Assembly (NCBI GenBank): GCA_963924555.1
Contig: OZ004587.1
Span: 5,782,075-5,846,074, forward strand
DNA length: 64,000 nucleotides
Source of the DNA: Crambe crambe
Taxonomy: Eukaryota; Porifera; Demospongiae; Poecilosclerida; Crambeidae
Reading direction: 5' to 3'
Shown here: one piece after another, positions 6,848 to 57,817 of the stretch
How positions within the stretch are numbered: the stretch's first letter is position 1
Layout of the letters: the number at the start of each line of letters is the position of its first letter
Made by a program: the position numbers and the translations under genes
The notes under the pieces: generated by a model
Databases searched by the model: none
What the model was told of the DNA's origin: nothing
Seen by the model: the letters and a program-made list of their open reading frames with translations, nothing else

Positions 6848-6878
<31 letters not shown>

Positions 6879-25339: not shown

Positions 25340-25375
<36 letters not shown>

Positions 25376-38515: not shown

Positions 38516-40364
38516 AGCGTGGGCGTTTTGCATGTCAAGCCTACATAGAGAGTGCTACTGCACTCTCCGATAGTAGCTAGCTAGCTATTATGTACTTACC
38601 CTCACAAGTGATGCCACTTCCATTGTATCCATGGTTACACGTACAGGTATAACTTCCAGGAGTGTTGGTACATGTAGCATTTGAGTCACAGTTGTTAGTA
38701 GTGGCACACTCATCTATATCTGCATACACACAAAAGACATAGTAGCCATCAATGGATTCTAGATGTACATACTTACCATTACAAGTGATGCCACTTCCAT
38801 TGTATCCATGGTTACATATACAGGTATATATTCCAGGAGTGTTGGCATATGCAGCATTTGAGTCACAGTTGTTAGTAGTGACACACTCATCTATATCTGC
38901 ATATACACAAAAGACATAGTAGCCATCCATGGATTCTAGATGTACATACTTACCATCACAAGTGACGCCCTTTCCTCTGTATCCATGGTTACATGTACAG
39001 ATATAGCTTCCAGGAGTGTTGGTGCATTTAGCATTAGAGTCACAGATGTTAGTGGCACACTCATCGTCTGAAACAAAACAAAGCAAACAATCTTCCACAA
39101 CTATGTTGCACTCCCAATTAAAAGGCACTAATCCTCCAGGATAAACATAAGAGACGTCTTTTGCAAATCCATCAACAGATACACCGATCCTTGCATCAGA
39201 GTCAACATTCAAGAGTGTGTGGTTTCCAGCAGATATGGCCACTCTAACAATGTATCCACAAATGCGACCACTTGAGCAATAAATTCTATTCCATCTTGAA
39301 TGATATAGACTTGCAGAGTCAAGAAGAATCTTTCCAAAATAACTTGGGGATAAATATATTGTGATATAGTTCCTTGTGAATCTTGATGGGATATTGAAGA
39401 TATAGTTATTACTGTACTGTTCTACTGACTGTATTATCCTCATGAAAGGATCCCCAGTAATGTCATCTTCTCTATGTCCAAGTGCAAACTGAGCAACCAG
39501 TATTGGAGCAGAAGATTCGATATTGCAGAAGCTATTTGGGTTGATCTTAAACTCGGTCCAATTTCCAGCAACTAAAAGTGAGTAGACCTCCACTTGAGGG
39601 AATGTTGTACAGTTCACACTGATGGTGGTAGAATTCTGAGCAGCAATGATCCTGATGATCTCACCAGACATTCTTCCCTCAAGGGAGGCCACAAAGAAAG
39701 AAGTGTTCCATGTAGATGTTGGTGGTATCTGTTCTGTCAGGTCACAAGCTCCTCTATTTGTAAGTATGTCAGTACATTTGTGGTTGCTGAAAAAAGATAT
39801 TGGCCTTGTGGATGTTATTCTCACACCAGTAGAGTCAGAACTTGAGATCAAATATGTTTCCAGACGATTTAATACGAATATAGTTGAGGGAGTAGTGATT
39901 ATAGTGTTATCTTCACATCCAACAATGAGTATGTCACTTGTAGAAGCTAGTCGAGGATATGATATCCCATAATACTCATATTCATCTACTGCTAGGTTAC
40001 TGCAAGGCAAGGCTAGGAATTCATCACTAGTACCAGCTCCATTGGAGAAGCCATATACAGTTAGTTTACTATCTCCCTCAGCTTTGACATGTATCCCCTG
40101 CTCAGTGATGTTGTTTGATTGGACTTGAAATGTAGAAGGTAAAGTCACAGCTATTGTTGAATCATTTGTAGCCACTCCAATGAAGGTAAATCCTCTGGCC
40201 TTCACCTTGAAGTTAACAGGATTGGATTCTGATGTGCTTATAAGGAGTTGAAGGGTAACCGACACAGCATCATAATTAGCAGAAAATCCCAGAAAATATT
40301 CATTAGCTGCATTCTCAATTATTAACCCTGAAGAAAATAATAACTGACTAGCTAATATTGCCAT
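32036..40364 (-). CDS. Gene B: secreted IgGFc-binding / EGF (x4) / Cys-rich / Calx-beta (x6) / FN3 protein
   Basis: Read right to left: first exon 40364-39068, EGF exons 39067-38954, 38896-38777, 38719-38600 and 37573-37448, Cys-rich 37291-37130, Calx-beta exons 36212-36081, 36027-35812, 35580-35377, 35290-35063, 35009-34599, 34535-34386, 34277-34044, 33893-33753, 33673-33467, 32919-32767 and 32710-32462, FN3-like 32387-32182, terminal 32086-32036 (TGA). The sum is 4,521 nt, 1,506 residues, in frame throughout. Start: ATG 40364 gives [13 protein letters not shown], a short signal-peptide-like stretch; but TTCTTCAG at 40334-40328 looks like an acceptor, so the true first exon may lie upstream. 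Compared with gene A it lacks six consecutive exons (three Calx-beta domains) and has two more EGF domains and the IgGFc head. The last intron starts with GC. No frameshift seen; probably functional and secreted. Confidence 0.75.
32462..36212 (-). CDS. Gene B: six Calx-beta-like domains in 11 exons
   Basis: Exons match gene A's one to one for the first nine (36212-33467), then skip to the equivalents of A's last two Calx-beta exons (32919-32462). A's exons at 28160-29618 have no counterpart. Sizes of nine of the eleven exons equal those in A; the second is 3 nt shorter and the seventh is 9 nt longer, keeping frame. Acidic IIDDDS, IFDDDG and IIDEDG turns are present. All introns are GT-AG. Confidence 0.8.
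36366..36540. repeat. ~175-bp MITE in a gene B intron
   Basis: Ends CCCTGTTTACACG and CGCATGTAAACACGG are imperfect complements. The interior repeats AACCCGGATT-type boxes in both orientations. It lies in the intron before the first Calx-beta exon of gene B and is absent at the equivalent place in gene A. Confidence 0.6.
37130..37291 (-). CDS. Gene B: Cys-rich module
   Basis: Homologous to 24192-24350 of gene [35 protein letters not shown] and CQPCPVG. It has one extra Ile codon at the start. Donor GTAAGA and acceptor TTTAG are intact. Confidence 0.7.
37448..37573 (-). CDS. Gene B: fourth EGF exon
   Basis: Encodes [13 protein letters not shown] then [27 protein letters not shown], a complete six-cysteine EGF. 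It ends on GTT T like the second EGF of gene A, so it is the orthologous exon. It is separated from the third EGF by an ~1.0-kb intron that contains a foldback and a tandem repeat. Confidence 0.8.
37597..37990. mobile_element. 394-bp foldback in a gene B intron
   Basis: Arms start TGAGAGTAAAAACATTTCTT and pair with the complement ending at 37990. The arms are about 190 bp and nearly identical, with the centre near 37795. Subterminal TGATGTAGG boxes and the AAGTGAGAGTAAAAA end resemble the foldback at 40899-41200 and fragments at 42303, 48160 and 57955, suggesting one family. Confidence 0.85.
38205..38512. repeat. Two-copy 120-bp tandem repeat and ATT microsatellite
   Basis: GGTGTAGAGCTTCAAGATGG at 38283 recurs as GGTGTAGGGCTTCAATATGG at 38403, period 120 bp, both followed by GTAGATATAGGATGAAGCAG. 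A run of ATT/TTA triplets follows at about 38477-38512. All are inside the intron between the third and fourth EGF exons of gene B. Confidence 0.75.
38543..38572. repeat. AGAGAGTGC hairpin, inner member of a flanking pair
   Basis: TACATAGAGAGTGCTACTGC then ACTCTC; the inverted counterpart AGAGAGTGCGGTAGCACTCT then CTATGTAGGG lies at 40379-40409. Each is itself a short dyad. The two face each other across the IgGFc exon and first three EGF exons of gene B. A related AGAGAGTGGTAGCTCTCTCT block is at 21068. Confidence 0.55.
38600..39067 (-). CDS. Gene B: three tandem EGF exons with 57-nt introns
   Basis: Exons 39067-38954, 38896-38777 and 38719-38600 each encode a cbEGF (DDEC or DIDEC start). 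The two introns are each exactly 57 nt, near-identical in sequence, and have no in-frame stop, so an unspliced transcript would also stay open and insert a 19-residue linker containing GYYVFCVYA. The middle EGF has lost one of its six cysteines: AAYANTPG replaces ATCTNTPG. High similarity of exons and introns shows recent tandem duplication. Confidence 0.85.
39068..40364 (-). CDS. Gene B: IgGFc-binding-type N-terminal domain
   Basis: One long exon of about 430 codons. The segment with [42 protein letters not shown], then [15 protein letters not shown] and a later [14 protein letters not shown] is the pattern of the IgGFc-binding N-terminal domain (as in FCGBP-like and many invertebrate secreted proteins). 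It has several N-x-S/T sites and paired cysteines. The join to the first EGF is unclear. A CAG acceptor sits at 39070-39068 but no convincing phase-1 donor precedes it closely, and reading straight through keeps the frame open ([15 protein letters not shown]). Confidence 0.7.
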
Positions 40365-40898
40365 AGTTAGGTATATCAGAGAGTGCGGTAGCACTCTCTA
40401 TGTAGGGTTAGTACAGAATGGGCGTGGCTTCTCTTATTATAACAATACAAACTAGATTCTGTATCTCTTCCATTCTTGCTACAGGCTCAACTAAACTTCT
40501 TACATCTGGAAAACAATGCAGAAGATGATGATATGACCGCTCAAACTCCTCCAGAACAATGTCAACGATCGGCACCAGCCGCCGCCTAAATCTAAAATTT
40601 TTATGATTTGTTCATCATCATCATCCTCTTCTTTGACGGCTGTAACTCCATGATCCTTTCACATACGACAATGAAATTCATATCAACTTGTGCAGTTATA
40701 ACCACATAATGTGCTTTTACCATCGTTATATCCTTCAAAATAATCACTCATATTGAACGACTTTCATTATAACTATGTCAGCCATTTAAAAATGACATCA
40801 TTTGTCATGTGCGTGCGTCTCTCACTGTCACGTGCACGTACGTGCGTGCCAACTAGCTATTTTTACTTCAAACTTTAGGTCGTACAAAAAGTAAACAA
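40365..40898. other. 5' flank of gene B
   Basis: Contains the second AGAGAGTGC hairpin (40379-40409). 40483-40590 has an AG acceptor-like site and an open frame ending in TAA with no known motif. 40800-40860 is rich in GTGCGTGCGT/CACGTGCACGTACGTG. A promoter must lie here or upstream of an unseen first exon, but no core element could be assigned. Confidence 0.35.
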
Positions 40899-49104: not shown

Positions 49105-49110
49105 TAGGAT

Positions 49111-49393
49111 GCAAGTATTATTCGGATAAAAAATTAGGCTAGGACCCATTTCTAAGGACCTAAATGACGTCATCTTTAATTGATTTAACCCCATACATTC
49201 GGATTAAACGAGCTACTTGCAGTGCTACTTGCAGCTACTCAATAAGCTACTGGACTAAAATCTAGCTAAGTGGCATGGATCCAGGCAAGTGTAATATATC
49301 TAATACATTGAGGAAGGAGTATGAAGTAACCTCAGAGCATCTCACTTACTTCCATCAATGTAAAAGAGTAATATAATATTCAAGAAGAAGAAT
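49111..49393 (+). repeat. Left terminal inverted repeat of the giant element
   Basis: Contains GACGTCATCTTTAATTGATT, ATTCGGATTAAACGAGCTAC and GAGGAAGGAGTATGAAGTAA, each with its complement in the right end (57530-57811). A direct GCTACTTGCAG duplication occurs at about 49210-49232. Confidence 0.8.
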
Positions 49394-49405
49394 GGTAAAA
49401 AAAAA

Positions 49406-52400
49406 TTAAGGATCCATGGCCATTACTGTCCTAAACGATAAGGTGCATTCTGTTCCAATGGTCACCAGTATCCTCTATGCTAGTACAAACTATATATAAT
49501 TTATATCACTATTCCTAGTTGAGGAACATTGTTTTCTAGAAGAGGAGTTGATTAAGGACCCATAGCCGTTACTCTCCAAATAGATAAGGTGCGTTCTGTT
49601 CCAATGGTCACCAGTATCCTCTATGCTAGTACTAACTATATCTGCACTTGATGATGTATATCTCTATTCCTAGTTGAGGAACATTGTTTACTAGAAGAGG
49701 GGCTGATTAAGGACCCATGGCTGTTACTCTTTGAAAAGATAAGGTGCATTCTGTTCCAATGGTCACCAGTATTCTCTATGCTAGTTAAAACTATATCTGC
49801 ATTTGACGATTTATATCTCTATTCCTAGTTGAGGAACATTGTTTTCTAGAAGAGGGGTTGATTAAGGATCCATGGGCCGTTACTCTCCAAAAAGATAAGG
49901 TGTGTTCTGTTCAAATGGTCACCATTATCCTCTATGCTAGTACAAACTATATCTGCACTTGATGATCTATATCTCTATTCCTAGTTGAGGAACATTGTTT
50001 ACTAGAAGAGGGGTTGATTAAGGACCCATGGCTGTTACTATTCGAAAAGATAAGGTGCGTTCTGTTCCAATCGTCACCAGTATTCTCTATGCTAGTTAAA
50101 ACCATATCTGCACTTGACGATTTATATTTCTATTCCTAGTTGAGGAACATTGTTTTCTAGAAGAGGAGTTGATTAAGGACCCATGGCCGTTACTCTCTAA
50201 AAAGATAAGGTGCGTTCTGTTCCAATGGTCAAACTATATCTGCATTTTAATGATCTATGATCTATATCTCTATTCCTAGTTGAGGAACATTGTTTTCTAT
50301 AAGAGGGGTTGATTAAGGACCCATGGCCGTTACTCTCCAAAAAGATAAGGTGTGTTTTGTTCAAATGGTCACCAGTACCGTCTTTGCTAGTACAAACTAT
50401 ATCTGCACTTGGTGATCTATATCTCTATTCCTAGTTGAGGAACATTGTTTTCTAGAAGAGGAGTTGATTAAGGACCCATGGCCGTTACTCTCCAAAAGGA
50501 TAAGGTGTGTTCTGTTCGAATGGTCACCAGTATCCTCCATACCATATCTGCACTTGATGATCTATATCTCTATTCCTAGTTGAGGAACATTGTTTTCTAG
50601 AAGAGGAGTTGATTAAGGACCCATGGCCGTTACTCTCCAAAAGGATAAGGTGTGTTCTGTTCAAATGGTCAGCAGTATCCTCCATACCATATCTGCACTT
50701 GATGATCTATATCTCTATTCCTAGTTGAGGAACATTGTTTTCTAGAAGAGGAGTTGATTAAGGACCCATGGCCGTTACTCTCCAAAAGGATAAGGTGTGT
50801 TCTGTTCAAATGGTCACCAGTATCCTCCATACCATATCTGCACTTGATGATCTATATCTCTATTCCTAGTTGAGGAACATTGTTTTCTAGAAGAGGGGTT
50901 GATTAAGGATCCATGGGCCGTTACTCTCCAAAAAGATAAGGTGTGTTCTGTTCAAATGGTCACCATTATCCTCTATGCTAGTACAAACTATATCTGCACT
51001 TGATGATCTATATCTCTATTCCTAGTTGAGGAACATTGTTTACTAGAAGAGGGGTTGATTAAGGACCCATGGCTGTTACTATTCGAAAAGATAAGGTGCG
51101 TTCTGTTCCAATCGTCACCAGTATTCTCTATGCTAGTTAAAACCATATCTGCACTTGACGATTTATATTTCTATTCCTAGTTGAGGAACATTGTTTTCTA
51201 GAAGAGGAGTTGATTAAGGACCCATGGCCGTTACTCTCTAAAAAGATAAGGTGCGTTCTGTTCCAATGGTCAAACTATATCTGCATTTTAATGATCTATG
51301 ATCTATATCTCTATTCCTAGTTGAGGAACATTGTTTTCTATAAGAGGGGTTGATTAAGGACCCATGGCCGTTACTCTCCAAAAAGATAAGGTGTGTTTTG
51401 TTCAAATGGTCACCAGTACCGTCTTTGCTAGTACAAACTATATCTGCACTTGGTGATCTATATCTCTATTCCTAGTTGAGGAACATTGTTTTCTAGAAGA
51501 GGAGTTGATTAAGGACCCATGGCCGTTACTCTCCAAAAGGATAAGGTGTGTTCTGTTCGAATGGTCACCAGTATCCTCCATACCATATCTGCACTTGATG
51601 ATCTATATCTCTATTCCTGTTTGAGGAACATTGTTTTCTAGAAGAGGAGTTGATTAAGGACCCATGGCCGTTACTCTCCAAAAGGATAAGGTGTGTTCTG
51701 TTCAAATGGTCAGCAGTATCCTCCATACCATATCTGCACTTGATGATCTATATCTCTATTCCTAGTTGAGGAACATTGTTTTCTAGAAGGAGTTGATTAA
51801 GGACCCATGGCCGTTACTCTCCAAAAAGATAAGGTATATTCTGTTTAAATGGTCACCAGTATCCTCTATGCTATATCTGCACTTGATGATCTATATTTCT
51901 ATTCCTAGTTGAGGAACATTGTTTTCTAGAAGAGGAGTTGATTAAGGACCCATGGCCGTTACTCTCCAAAAGGATAAGGTGTGTTCTGTTCAAATGGTCA
52001 CCAGTATCCTCCATACCATATCTGCACTTGATGATCTATATCTCTATTCCTAGTTGAGGAACATTGTTTTCTAGAAGAGGAGTTGATTAAGGACCCATGG
52101 CCGTTACTCTCCAAAAGGATAAGGTGTGTTCTGTTCAAATGGTCAGCAGTATCCTCCATACCATATCTGCACTTGATGATCTATATCTCTATTCCTAGTT
52201 GAGGAACATTGTTTTCTAGAAGAGGAGTCGATTAAGGACCCATGGCCGTTACTCTCCAAAAGGATAAGGTGTGTTCTGTTCAAATGGTCACCAGTATCCT
52301 CCATACCATATCTGCACTTGATGATCTATATCTCTATTCCTAGTTGAGGAACATTGTTTTCTAGAAGGAGTTGATTAAGGATCCATGGCCGTTACTCTCC

Positions 52401-53395
52401 AAAAAGATAAGGTATATTCTGTTTAAATGGTCACCAGTATCCTCTATGCTATATCTGCACTTGATGATCTATATTTCTATTCCTAGTTGAGGAACATTGT
52501 TTTCTAGAAGAGGAGTTGATTAAGGACCCATGGCCGTTACTCTCCAAAAAGATAAGGTGCGTTCTGTTCAAATGGGCACCAGTACCCTCTATGCTAGTAC
52601 GAATTATATCTGCACTTGATGATCTATATCTCTCTTCCTAGTTAAGGAACATCGTTTCTAGAAGAGGGACCCATGGCCGTTACTCTCCAAAAGATAAGGT
52701 GCATTCTGTTCAAATGGTTACCATTATCCTTTAAGCTAGTACAAACTATATCTGCACTTGATGATCTATTTCTCTATTCCTAGTTGAGGAACATTGTTTT
52801 CTAGAAGAGGAGTTGATTAAGGACCCATAGCCGTTACTCTCCAAAAAGATAAGGTGCGTTCTGTTCTAATGGTCACCAGTATCCTCTATGCTAGTACAAA
52901 CTATATCTGCACTTGATGATCTATATCTCTATTCCTAGTTGAGGAACATTGTTTTCTAGAAGAGGAGTTGATTAAGGACCCATAGCCATTACTCTCCAAA
53001 AAAATAAGGTGTGTTCTGTTCCAATGGTCACTATTATCCTCTATGCTAGTACAAACTATATCTGCACTTGACAATTTATATCTCTATTCCTAGTTGAGGA
53101 ACATTGTTTTCTATAAGAGGGGTTGATTAAGGACCCATGGCCGTTACTCTCCAAAAAGATAAGGTGTGTTTTGTTCGAATGGTCACCAGTACCCTCTTTG
53201 CTAGTACAAACTATATCTGCACTTGGTGATCTATATCTCTATTCCTAGTTGAGGAACATTGTTTTCTAGAAGAGGGGTTGATTAAGGACCCATGACCGTT
53301 ATGTTCAGGTATGCTTGGTCACCAGTATCCTCTATGTTAGTACAAATCATCTGCACTTCATGATCTATCTTTCTATATATCTAGTTGAGGAACTC
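49406..53395 (+). repeat. Left satellite array, ~150-bp monomer, about 26 units
   Basis: Monomers of roughly 134-156 bp run head to tail. Each starts ATTAAGGACCCATGGCCGTT, continues with GATAAGGTG(C/T)GTTCTGTT, AATGGTCACCAGTATCCTC, a GCACTTGATGATCTATATCT block and CTAGTTGAGGAACATTGTTT, and ends CTAGAAGAGG(A/G)GTTG. Short variants lack the GCTAGTACAAA part. A higher-order repeat of 1,041 bp (from 49861 and again from 50902) copies seven monomers with their private variants. All frames are closed frequently; it is non-coding. Confidence 0.9.
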
Positions 53396-55144
53396 ATGGC
53401 TGTTTTACTACTGAGCAGTGAGATGAGTGAATTCTTTGCCGCCTGATTGAAAACTTCTGCCACTTCTGTGAAACTGGATGCTGTTCATTTTTTTCTATGA
53501 TTACTTGCTAGCAAGCAAATTCTATATCATGACTTCTTATTAATTCATCATGAAATTTAAGGAGTGATGTACATCAAGTAATGGGGTGGAAACATGTATG
53601 GTATTCTGCTGCCCTGAACTCTGGTTGGTAGCATCCAACGTCCCTGAACTCTGGTTGGTAGCATCCAACGTTCAGCATGAAATGTGCAAGTAATGGGGTG
53701 GAAATGTGTATGGTAGTCTGGTGCCCTGAACTCTGGTTGGTAGCATCATGAAATGTAGCATTCAGCAGGTAATGGGGTGGAAACATGTATGGTAGTCTGG
53801 TGCCCTGAACTCTGGTTGGTAGCATCATGAAATGTAGCATTCAGCAGGTAATGGGGTGGAAACGTGTGGTGCCCTGAACTCTGGTTGGTAGCATCCAACG
53901 TTCAGCATGAAATGTAGCATTCAGCAAGTAATGGGGTGGAAACGTGTATGGTAGTCTGGTGCCCTGGTAGCATCCAACGTTCAGCATGAAATGTAGCATT
54001 CAGCAGGTGATGGGGTGGAAACGTGTATGGTAGTCTGGTGCCCTGGTAGCATCCAACGTTCAGCATGAAATGTAGCATTCAGCAGGTGATGGGGTGGAAA
54101 CGTGTATGGTAGTCTGGTGCCCTGGTAGCATCCAACGTTCAGCATGAAATGTAGCATTCAGCAGGTGATGGGGTGGAAACGTGTATGGTAGTCTGGTGCC
54201 CTGAACTCTGGTTGGTAGCATCCAACGTTCAGCATGAAATGTAGCACTCAGCAGGTGATGGGGTGGAAACGTGTATGGTAGTCTGGTGCCCTGGTAGCAT
54301 CCAACGTTCAGCATGAAATGTAGCATTCAGCAGGTGATGGGGTGGAAACGTGTATGGTAGTCTGGTGCCCTGAACTCTGGTTGGTAGCATCCAACGTTCA
54401 GCATGAAATGTAGCATTCAGCAGGTGATGGGGTGGAAACGTGTATGGTAGTCTGGTGCCCTGAACTCTGGTTGGTAGCATCCAACGTTCAGCATGAAATG
54501 TAGCATTCAGCAGGTGATGGGGTGGAAACGTGTATGGTAGTCTGGTGCCCTGAACTCTGGTTGGTAGCATCCAACGTTCAGCATGAAATGTAGCATTCAG
54601 CAGGTGATGGGGTGGAAACGTGTATGGTAGTCTGGTGCCCTGGTAGCATCCAACGTTCAGCATGAAATGTAGCATTCAGCAGGTAATGGGGTGGAAACGT
54701 GTATGGTAGTCTGGTGCCCTGAACTCTGGTTGGTAGCATCCAACGTTCAGCATGAAATGTAGCATTCAGCAGGTAATGGGGTGGAAACGTGTATGGTAGT
54801 CTGGTGCCCTGAACTCTGGTTGGTAGCATCCAATGTAGTCAGCATTCAAGTGCATGGGTACACCATGTATTCATCAAAGGTATGTAATTAAGAGTACATT
54901 TCTGCTGTTAATTAACATAATCATTTTGTGTGTGTGTGTTTTTTCGTTGTTTTTTTTTTTTTTGGAGTCAGATTTCTCAGTAGCTGGTGGTAGAGAAGTT
55001 CTCTTCAGGGATAATTTCTGAATCAGCAAGTCTTGATCATTGTAGCATTTTATATGATTGTACCTCCTCCTATTATTGCACATACAGGGAAGCTCAACTC
55101 CATCTGAGTGTCCTGGGCATGAGAAAGAGATATAGATCATCAAG
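53396..55144. other. Centre of the giant element outside the minisatellite
   Basis: The spacers 53396-53578 and 54837-55144 are unique and not inverted copies of each other, so the palindrome is interrupted here. The right spacer has a GT microsatellite followed by a T-run (about 54927-54964). No gene was recognised. Confidence 0.5.
53579..54836 (-). repeat. Central 90/78-bp minisatellite, about 15 units
   Basis: Unit: GGTAATGGGGTGGAAACGTG, TATGGTAGTCTGGTGCCCTG, (AACTCTGGTTG), GTAGCATCCAACGTTCAGCA, TGAAATGTAGCATTCAGCA. The bracketed part is absent in the 78-bp variants. Both lengths are multiples of three and the unit has one stop-free frame on the - strand, giving long artificial-looking ORFs of repeated LNATFHAERWMLPTRVQGTR type. 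Low confidence that this is translated. Confidence 0.85.
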
Positions 55145-57510
55145 TGCAGATATGGTTTGTACTAGCATAGAGGATACTGGTGACCATTGGAACAGAACAC
55201 ACCTTATCTTTTTGGAGAGTAATGGCCATGGGTCCTTAATCAACTCCTTTTCTAGAAAACAATGTTCCTCAACTAGGAATAGAGATATAGATCATCAAGT
55301 GCAGATATAGTTTGTACTAGCATAGAGGATACTGGTGACCATTTGAACAGAACACACCTTATCTTTTTGGAGAGTAACAACCATGGGTCCTTAATCAACC
55401 CTTCTTCTAGAAAACAATATTCCTCAACTAGGAATAGAGATATAGATCATCAAGTGCAGATATGGTTTTAACTAGCATAGAAAACACTGGTGACAATTGG
55501 AACATAACACACCTTATCTTTTTGGAGAGTAACAGCCATGGGTCCTTAATCAACCCATCTTCTAGAAAACAATGTTCCTCAACTAGGAATAGAGATATAG
55601 ATCATCAAGTGCAGATATGGTTTTAACTAGCATAGAAAACACTGGTGACAATTGGAACATAACACACCTTATCTTTTTGGAGAGTAACGGCCATGGGTCC
55701 TTAATCAACCCCTCTTCTAGAAAATAATGTTCCTCAACTAGGAATAGAGATATAGATCATCAAGTGCAGATATGATTTGTACTAGCATAGAGGATAATGG
55801 TGACCATTGGAACAGAATGCACCTTATCTTTTGGGGGAGTAACGGCCATGGGTCCTTACTCGACTCCTCTTCTAGAAAACAATGTTCATATAGTTTGTAC
55901 TAGCATAGAGGATAATGGTGACCATTGGAACAGAATGCACCTTATCTTTCGGAGAGTAACGGCCATGGGTCCTTAATCAACTCCTCTTCTAGAAAACAAT
56001 GTTCCTCAACTAGGAATAGAGATATAGGTCATCAAGTGCAGATATAGTTTGTACTAGCATGGAGGGTACTGGTGACAATTTGAATAGAACGCACCTTATC
56101 TTTTTGGAGAGTAACGGCTATGGGTCCTTAATCAACTCCTCTTCTAGAAAACAATGTTTCTCAACTAGGAATAGAGATATAGATCATCAAGTGCAGATAT
56201 GGTATGGAGGATACTGGTGACCATTGGAACAGAACACACCTTATCTTTTTGGAGAGTAACAACCATGGGTCCTTAATCAACTCCTCTTCTAGAAAACAAT
56301 GTTCCTCAACTAGGAATAGAGATATAGATCATCAAGTGCAGATATACTTCGTACTAGCATAGAGGATAATGGTGACCATTGGAACAGAACGCACCTTATC
56401 GTTTTGGAGAGTAACGGCCATGGGTCCTTAATCAACCCTTCTTCTAGAAAACAATGTTCCTCAACTAGGAATAGAGATATAGATCATCAAGTGCAGATAC
56501 ACTTCGTACTAGCATAGAGGATAATGGTGACCATTGGAACAGAACGCACCTTATCTTTTTGGAGAGTAACGGCCATGGGTCCTTAATCAGCTCCTCTTCT
56601 AGAAAACAATGTTCCTCAACTAGGAATAGAGATATAGATCATCAAGTGCAGATATACTTCGTACTAGCATAGAGGATAATGGTGACCATTGGAACAGAAC
56701 GCACCTTATCGTTTTGGAGAGTAACGGCCATGGGTCCTTAATCAACCCTTCTTCTAGAAAACAATGTTCCTCAACTAGGAATAGAGATATAGATCATCAA
56801 GTCCAGATATACTTCGTACTAGCATAGAGGATAATGGTGACCATTGGAACAGAACGCACCTTATCTTTTTGGAGAGTAACGGCCATGGGTCCTTAATCAA
56901 CTCCTCTTCTAGAAAACAATGTTCCTCAACTAGGAATAGAGATATAGATCATCAAGTGTAGATATAGTTTGTACTAGCATAGAGGATACTGGTGACCATT
57001 GGAACAGAACACACCTTATCTTTTTGGAGAGTAACAACCATGGGTCCTTAATCAACCCTTCTTCTAGAAAACAATGTTCCTCAACTAGGAATAGAGATAT
57101 AGATCATCAAGTGCAGATATACTTCGTACTAGCATAGAGGATACTGGTGACAATTGGAACATAACGCACCTTATCTTTTTGGATAGTAATGGCCATGGGT
57201 CCTTAATCAACCCCTCTTCTAGAAAATAATGTTCCTCATAGAGATATAGATCATCAAGTGCAGATATAGCTTATACTAGCATAGAGGATACCGGTGACCA
57301 TTTGAACAGAACACACCTTATCTATTTGGAGAGTAACGGCCATGGGTCCTTAATCAACTCCTCTTTTAGAAAACAATGTTCCTCAACTAGAAATAGTGAT
57401 ATAAATTATCAAGTGCTGATATAGTTTGTACTAGCATAGATGATACTGGTGACCATTGGAACAGAATGCATCTTATCGTTTAGGATAGTAATGGTCATGG
57501 GTCCTTAATT
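55145..57510 (-). repeat. Right satellite array, inverted, about 15 units
   Basis: The same monomer as the left array on the other strand, e.g. CCATGGGTCCTTAATCAACC, GAAAACAATGTTCCTCAACT and AGAGATATAGATCATCAAGT in each unit. It has fewer and less homogenised units than the left arm, plus its own local duplication (55441-55590 and 55595-55740 share private changes such as ATAGAAAACACTGGTGACAA). Confidence 0.9.
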
Positions 57511-57529
57511 TTTTTTGATCATTCCTCTT

Positions 57530-57811
57530 CTTGAATATTATATTACTCTTTTACATTGATGGAAGTAAGTGAGATGCTCTGAGGTTACTTCATACTCCTT
57601 CCTCAATGTATTAGATATATTACACTTGCCTGGATCCATGCCACTTAGCTAGATTTTCATCCAGTAGCTTATTGAGTAGCTGTAAATAGCACTGAGTAGC
57701 ACCGAGTAGCTCGTTTAATCCGAATGTATGGGGTTAAATCAATTAAAGATGACGTCATTTAGGTCCTTAGAAATGGGTCCTAGCCTAAAATTCTATCAGT
57801 ATAATACCTGC
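57530..57811 (-). repeat. Right terminal inverted repeat of the giant element
   Basis: Complement of 49111-49393 with a few substitutions and small indels around the GAGTAGCT boxes (57690-57710). Confidence 0.8.
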
Positions 57812-57817
57812 AGGATG

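Follow-up and report, generated by a model that had tools for sequence, protein, structure and literature searches.

Satellite arrays in the mirror-image arms of a dispersed foldback-type element in the sponge Crambe crambe

In the 143-Mb genome of the sponge Crambe crambe (119 contigs) we analysed a 64,000-nucleotide stretch, C10:5782075-5846074 (the window), which contains an 8,699 bp element at window positions 49112-57810 whose two arms are arrays of one satellite in opposite orientation. The element belongs to a dispersed, apparently non-autonomous foldback-type family that leaves a 7-bp target duplication, carries its satellite arrays to new sites as a ready-made order of units, and afterwards differs in array length within one insertion and exchanges sequence between its arms. 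The family is likely to be moved in trans by a transposase of the P superfamily, for which the arm units may provide many binding sites; we put the probability of this combined reading at about 0.6.

Structure of the element

Comparison of copies set the termini of the element at CA...TG (49112 and 57810); it starts with CAAGTATTAT and finishes with ATAATACCTG. From the outside inward it consists of a left outer terminal inverted repeat (TIR) of the 'A' type (49112..49400, plus strand, from 40 scored genome matches), satellite arm A (49405..53301, plus strand), a segment of its own (53302..53611, plus strand, with 20 genome matches for 53380-53600), a central minisatellite (53612..54833, plus strand), a second segment (54834..55125, plus strand, with 25 genome matches for 54840-55120, nine of them partial), satellite arm B (55126..57509, minus strand) and a right outer TIR of the 'B' type (57514..57810, minus strand, from genome matches of the ends). 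The ends, about 290 bp long, are 93% alike in inverted orientation (genome match at C10:5839588-5839885). Arm A has about 26 units, mostly of 140-156 bp (Tandem Repeats Finder, TRF: 155/145-bp, 26.1 copies; unit map), and arm B has about 15 units of the same ~155-bp satellite, inverted relative to arm A (TRF: two rows, 4.9 and 10.6 copies; unit map). The minisatellite was resolved by TRF into 79/90-bp units unrelated to the satellite. These results confirm the inverted ends, the two opposite arrays of one satellite and the unrelated central minisatellite described in a first-pass annotation of this DNA. The annotation had also reported a border duplication of 5-6 bp, AGGAT(G); a duplication is present, but its size is 7 bp, with TAGGATG on the left (49105..49111) and CAGGATG on the right (57811..57817) identical at six of the seven positions (both unstranded, from comparison of copies).

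Its long inverted arms, built of tandem repeats and separated by a middle segment, place the element in the foldback type, to which the annotation had likened it. The reading frames of at least 60 codons in the window copy are all short, and the longest ATG frame (148 codons) lies within the minisatellite; the window copy is thus without an obvious protein gene and appears non-autonomous, a classification made from the lengths of its ATG frames and not from protein-family comparison.

Copies, target duplications and empty sites

The genome search scored only the best candidates, and the copy counts given here are therefore lower bounds. Among the 40 scored matches of the outer end, 28 make up 14 inverted pairs, 4.5-10.6 kb apart. 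At least 28 loci carry at least one end and five more hold inner parts only (of these, L029 and L030 were read), which gives at least 33 loci with any part. An exact 7/7 duplication is present at eight of the 11 two-ended loci (L009, L012, L013, L014, L015, L016, L022 and L019/L020), and the eight 7-mers, GGAAACG, AGTGCAA, ACTCGAA, CAAACAG, CCTCAGC, AAACACG, GTATAAT and AAAATGG, all differ.

For the detection of empty sites the flanks of eight copies were joined with one 7-mer kept and compared with the genome, where the best 40 of 474 candidates were inspected. The join was matched without interruption for four of the eight: L013 (99-100%), L012 (99%), L016 (96-99%) and L015 (90-93%, with small length differences). 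Three of these empty sites were fetched and are letter-exact across 30 bases, the single 7-mer and 30 further bases; over 463-498 columns they are 84.7, 82.9 and 65.1% similar, and this lower long-range similarity is likely due to the sites lying in other repeats and to the shortness of the fetched stretches. The several insertions, with their target duplications and empty sites, mark the element as mobile. Further copies, copies with different duplications and empty sites were what the annotation had proposed to look for, and their presence supports its suggestion of an apparently non-autonomous transposon that carries a whole satellite array.

L015 and L024 represent one insertion in a duplicated segment, as their flanks are 99.7% alike over 764 bp on the left and 99.1% over 666 bp on the right (in a comparison beginning 12 bases into the flank); in L024 the sequence that reaches from the minisatellite into the right flank has been lost. 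The single-ended copies L023 and L028, both flanked by CTAGCTG, were considered as halves of one element, an idea that was dropped because both contain the minisatellite and part of the segment following it.

Some loci are clustered or rearranged. Four similar partial copies, possibly segmental duplicates, lie within 235 kb at C9:7121557, 7154775, 7260510 and 7356067, and four older ends (82-91%) of a single orientation lie within 126 kb at C5:2237522, 2250155, 2306390 and 2363238. L032, the locus of one of these four C5 ends, has satellite units followed by different sequence further inward. Within arm B of the C3 copy there are about 5.1 kb unlike the window element (L019:2080-7209), with a longest frame of 134 codons.

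Confinement of the satellite to the family

A 33-base satellite core, with up to three mismatches allowed, matched 515 places in the genome, whereas its reversed-pattern control matched none. The fetched family loci contain 466 of the 515; the other 49 comprise two in L044 (a satellite remnant of about 400 bp, in which the ends were not found), 11 at C9 family loci, one at C5:4699985 and 35 at unlocated places. Thus, no fewer than nine tenths of the detected satellite copies sit within such elements. Similarly, 191 of 208 minisatellite-core matches are inside fetched family loci and 17 are at unlocated places. No free satellite array was seen among the located core matches, 35 of the 515 places being unlocated; a free array of moderate length could still exist, as could arrays that the assembly lacks. 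Of the route for seeding satellites around the genome that the annotation had envisaged, the carriage of whole arrays stands, but seeded free arrays were not seen. Taking into account that the same layout is found at many loci whose flanks differ, that exact duplications border eight of 11 two-ended copies and that the core and its control gave 515 and 0 matches, the arrangement is more than a product of chance.

Transport and later change of the arrays

The units were mapped in copies other than L019-L021, L026 and L029-L032, and a positional unit table covers all 17 copies. At the outer end of arm A the series of unit lengths 146, 155, 155, 156, 155, 140, 155, 145 is common to the window copy, L009, L010 and L013, and other copies depart slightly from it in the unit map. 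The outer end of arm B reads 155, 147, 155 in eight of the 15 copies in which arm-B sites were mapped. At the sequence level, the three outermost A units matched their counterparts across copies with medians of 100, 98.1 and 98.7% (78 pairs from 13 chosen copies), against 89.7% to neighbours; the corresponding values for arm B were 98.7, 100 and 97.3% (36 pairs, nine chosen copies), against 86.4-90.8%. The 13 copies do not include L018, L022, L025 or L028, which has no arm A, and they count L015 and L024 separately in spite of their being one insertion; the nine do not include L010, L013, L015, L018, L025 or L027, nor L023 and L024, which have no arm B.

When position was ignored, a match of at least 98% in another insertion was found for 191 of the 225 A units and for 116 of the 140 B units. 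The best match was in another insertion for 130 A units, in the unit's own array for 30 and equal for 65 (n=225), and the same counts for B units were 110, 13 and 17 (n=140), in a comparison biased toward other insertions because these offer more units. It covered 12 copies for arm A (L017, L018, L024 and L025 left out) and 10 for arm B (L010, L017, L018, L025 and L027 left out), and it skipped units of 100 bp or less and of 200 bp or more. Since the order of the outer units is kept across insertions, the arrays travel ready-made.

After transport the arrays change. Among 16 mapped copies arm A has between 6 and 26 unit sites, and even within the one duplicated insertion the number is 19 in L015 and 16 in L024, a difference that arose either through conversion or because units were gained or lost. 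In the window copy a block of about seven units (49808..50749, plus strand; offset scan, unit map) has a second copy 1,041 bp further on, at 50849-51790, with 99.6% identity; the unit-length maps of other copies do not show this duplication pattern. Both ends of L010 carry A-type units, with the outer ~100 bp missing on one side, and both ends of L022 carry B-type units; together they show that the arms exchange sequence. Arm B of L013 was also considered as carrying A-type units, but this was dropped, its odd first unit being unlike the A type. Older relatives (L029 to L032, with 82-94% identity depending on the piece) retain the satellite, the minisatellite or both, which indicates that the two were joined in an older ancestor.

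Candidate transposase

Of 197 candidate matches to a P-type transposase domain in the genome, the best 150 were scored. Six such loci were fetched, and both termini were present in L037, L039 and L040. L037 and L040 have CA...TG termini and the exact 7-bp duplications GTTTCAC and GTGCCTG, and their main frames match PF21787 well above the cut-off. Duplications of 7 or 8 bp are typical of the P superfamily; the element described here leaves 7 bp, as do two of the three local P elements with both termini. The 7-bp duplication and the abundance of local P-superfamily elements suggest that a P-type transposase is the likely mover of the element. At four of the six P loci GGGATTGG lies further inward of the termini.

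The TIR contains the sequence AGGACCCAT, as do 226 of the 263 distinct satellite units, and this sequence was considered as a transposase site common to the two; we keep it as a lead only, given its BLAST value (see below). A preference of the element for insertion into P-element ends was dropped, as among the 19 loci with available flanks scanned (L019 without its left flank) the P-end motif was found in L009 only.

The L009 copy is nested within a P-type terminal repeat (CATAGATAGTATATTACCGCCCCGGGATTGGAAACG, L009:980-1015), and L019/L020 lies close to a run of CATAGATA. L037:1842-6342 and L040:611-4841 each contain a second frame, of 321 and 263 aa respectively, which faces the transposase frame in convergent orientation; these second frames gave no Pfam match at E 0.001. 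In the search for an autonomous partner, a looser 20-base terminal pattern (up to two mismatches) matched 269 places against 240 for its reversed control (part of them listed). Scanning of the near-matches L033, L034 and L035 for inverted termini revealed none of the element's type, and BLAST of L042 and L043 against the element gave no match. L034:1-5101 is a stretch with several internal inverted repeats and a 422-aa frame that by eye resembles a subtilisin-type protease.

Alternative explanations

A number of observations weigh against the reading of a transposed, P-mobilised element with ready-made arrays. Among the 11 two-ended loci, L011 and L018 have both termini and no matching 7-bp duplication, the outcome that recombination between copies would give; chimeric Galileo copies are likewise reported to have unmatched 7-bp flanks (PMC3573991). 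In the best 40 of 474 candidates no empty site was found for the window copy, L009, L014 or L022. The positional match of units falls inward to about background, as is expected where the number of units changes. With respect to the mover, L039 is a P element with perfect 33-bp TIRs and no 7-bp duplication, and the termini at all six sampled P loci are CATAGATA or CAGAGATA, unlike the CARGTATTAT of the element. The only near-matches of the element to the inner P motif GGGATTGGAAACG are in 12 minisatellite units, with up to three differences, and BLAST gave the motif shared by TIR and unit E = 2, no better than chance. An autonomous partner was not found either: a terminal 28-base pattern (up to three mismatches) occurs at 30 places, each a family locus, and a search with the 70 terminal bases (E up to 10) gave 40 places, 38 of which are known family loci and two are new, unread C5 loci. 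The unlike termini and the missing partner are what would be seen if the same foldback-type element had been moved by another superfamily leaving 7 bp or by a transposase now lost, a possibility that we consider real but distinctly less probable. Dada-type elements, which leave 6-7 bp, would be an example of such a superfamily. Against it, two of the three local P elements with both termini combine 7-bp duplications with CA...TG ends, the six sampled P loci are few beside 150 scored domain matches, and a duplication of 7 bp is also left by the foldback-like P element Galileo (PMC4168063).

The remaining alternatives would remove transport or transposition from the account. If the arrays were not carried but had grown anew in every insertion, each from a short seed unit, the variable number of arm-A sites, the block duplication specific to the window copy and the inward fading of the positional match would follow; the outer units, however, are orthologous across insertions, the unit order from the outer end is not copy-specific, best matches lie more often in other insertions (with the bias stated above) and older relatives already have the satellite, the minisatellite or both, so that independent growth appears very improbable. 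Spread of the copies by segmental duplication or ectopic conversion has precedents in the common flanks of L015 and L024 and, perhaps, in the similar partial ends of the four C9 copies, but it is contradicted for the eight loci with different exact 7-bp duplications, the empty sites of four insertions speak against it as well, and we give this explanation equally little weight. Finally, tandem arrays are prone to misassembly and the structure is known from the assembly alone; yet the two-armed layout recurs with differing unit maps on different contigs, which makes an assembly artefact the least probable origin of the mirror symmetry.

Proposed mechanism and significance

According to the P-mobilised foldback reading, the element would insert by means of a transposase supplied by another element and, with less certainty, this enzyme would be of the P type. 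The arm units are predicted to bind the transposase by analogy with some Galileo repeats, a role derived from the THAP-domain binding sites within the tandem repeats of long Galileo TIRs (PMC3688188). Unequal exchange inside the arms would alter the number of units, and recombination or conversion between the inverted arms would swap the ends. It is a tentative thought, and one we hold with some doubt, that the element is selfish and the satellite its cis-acting machinery, dozens of inverted units serving as predicted landing arrays for transposase that are copied ready-made and then expand, contract and swap arms.

Because arrays offer no landmarks, the dispersal of satellites and the rate of their length change are difficult to measure. 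In this family the same arrays occur at many sites, each a defined insertion, often with a 7-bp duplication and sometimes with an empty site, and with the outer units in register; such landmarks make array turnover and exchange between inverted arms directly countable. If the reading as a selfish element is true, each insertion would be a dated replicate experiment in satellite turnover inside one genome. Through the ready-made arrays in its mirror-image arms the element would be able to spread satellite DNA, although this carriage is seen here without visible free satellites in the assembly. It also bears on the question of why foldback elements retain tandem arms.

Comparison with known elements

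The FB elements of Drosophila also have inverted repeats composed of short tandem repeats, but their units are much shorter and their duplications are 9 bp long. Helentrons are rolling-circle elements without TIRs or target duplications; the TIRs and 7-bp duplications found here thus set the element apart from Helitrons and Helentrons. Its likeness to the satellite-carrying Helentrons of Crassostrea gigas is that a mobile element disperses short satellite-like arrays (PMC7492417). Arrays internal to transposons have been reviewed as one source of satellites (PMC12628747).

The closest elements are Tetris and Galileo. In Tetris, a foldback transposon of Drosophila virilis, outer flanking domains lead into ~220-bp units repeated in tandem in each TIR, and the middle is variable (PMC4079207). 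It resembles the present element in being non-autonomous, in having a flanking domain followed by tandem repeats in inverted arms around a variable non-coding middle, in the different repeat numbers of its alleles and in that no autonomous partner is reported to have been found (PMC4079207). It differs in its target duplication (8-10 bp against 7) and in being known from three structurally complete copies (PMC4079207). Tetris repeats also build arrays with as many as 66 units, and many of these arrays are on contigs that lack the flanking domain, although fibre-FISH in that study detected no array of repeats alone (PMC4079207). By comparison, at least 466 of the 515 satellite-core matches remain within the present family, which in addition has a second, unrelated central tandem array and one arm extending to about 26 units.

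Galileo shares with the element the 7-bp duplication (PMC4168063), long TIRs, which in some copies contain ~140- or ~210-bp tandem repeats (PMC3573991, PMC4168063, PMC3688188), and chimeric copies with TIRs from different groups (PMC3573991); in D. willistoni the TIRs of one copy are 4.2-4.7 kb long and include as many as nine tandem repeats of ~140 bp (PMC4168063). In contrast, some Galileo copies retain a segment of transposase, and the tandem repeats of Galileo are few and present in some copies only. Its target consensus GTANTAC is not evident here by eye, and the likeness does not come from a letter-level comparison of termini. Given the plan of Tetris and the Galileo copy with tandem-repeat TIRs, the annotation's remark that it knew no described element with this layout is not supported. 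For a pair of inverted satellite arms that enclose another, unrelated tandem array no description was found in the literature covered, which was mostly titles and openings of abstracts, with most subscription journals outside it.

Other observations in the window

On the minus strand, at window positions 38577-40394, there is a 605-aa frame with IgGFc_binding and EGF domains, which overlaps a 177-bp tandem repeat at 38593-39065. Two long homopolymers were also noted, 29 G at 6848-6876 and 35 C at 25341-25375.

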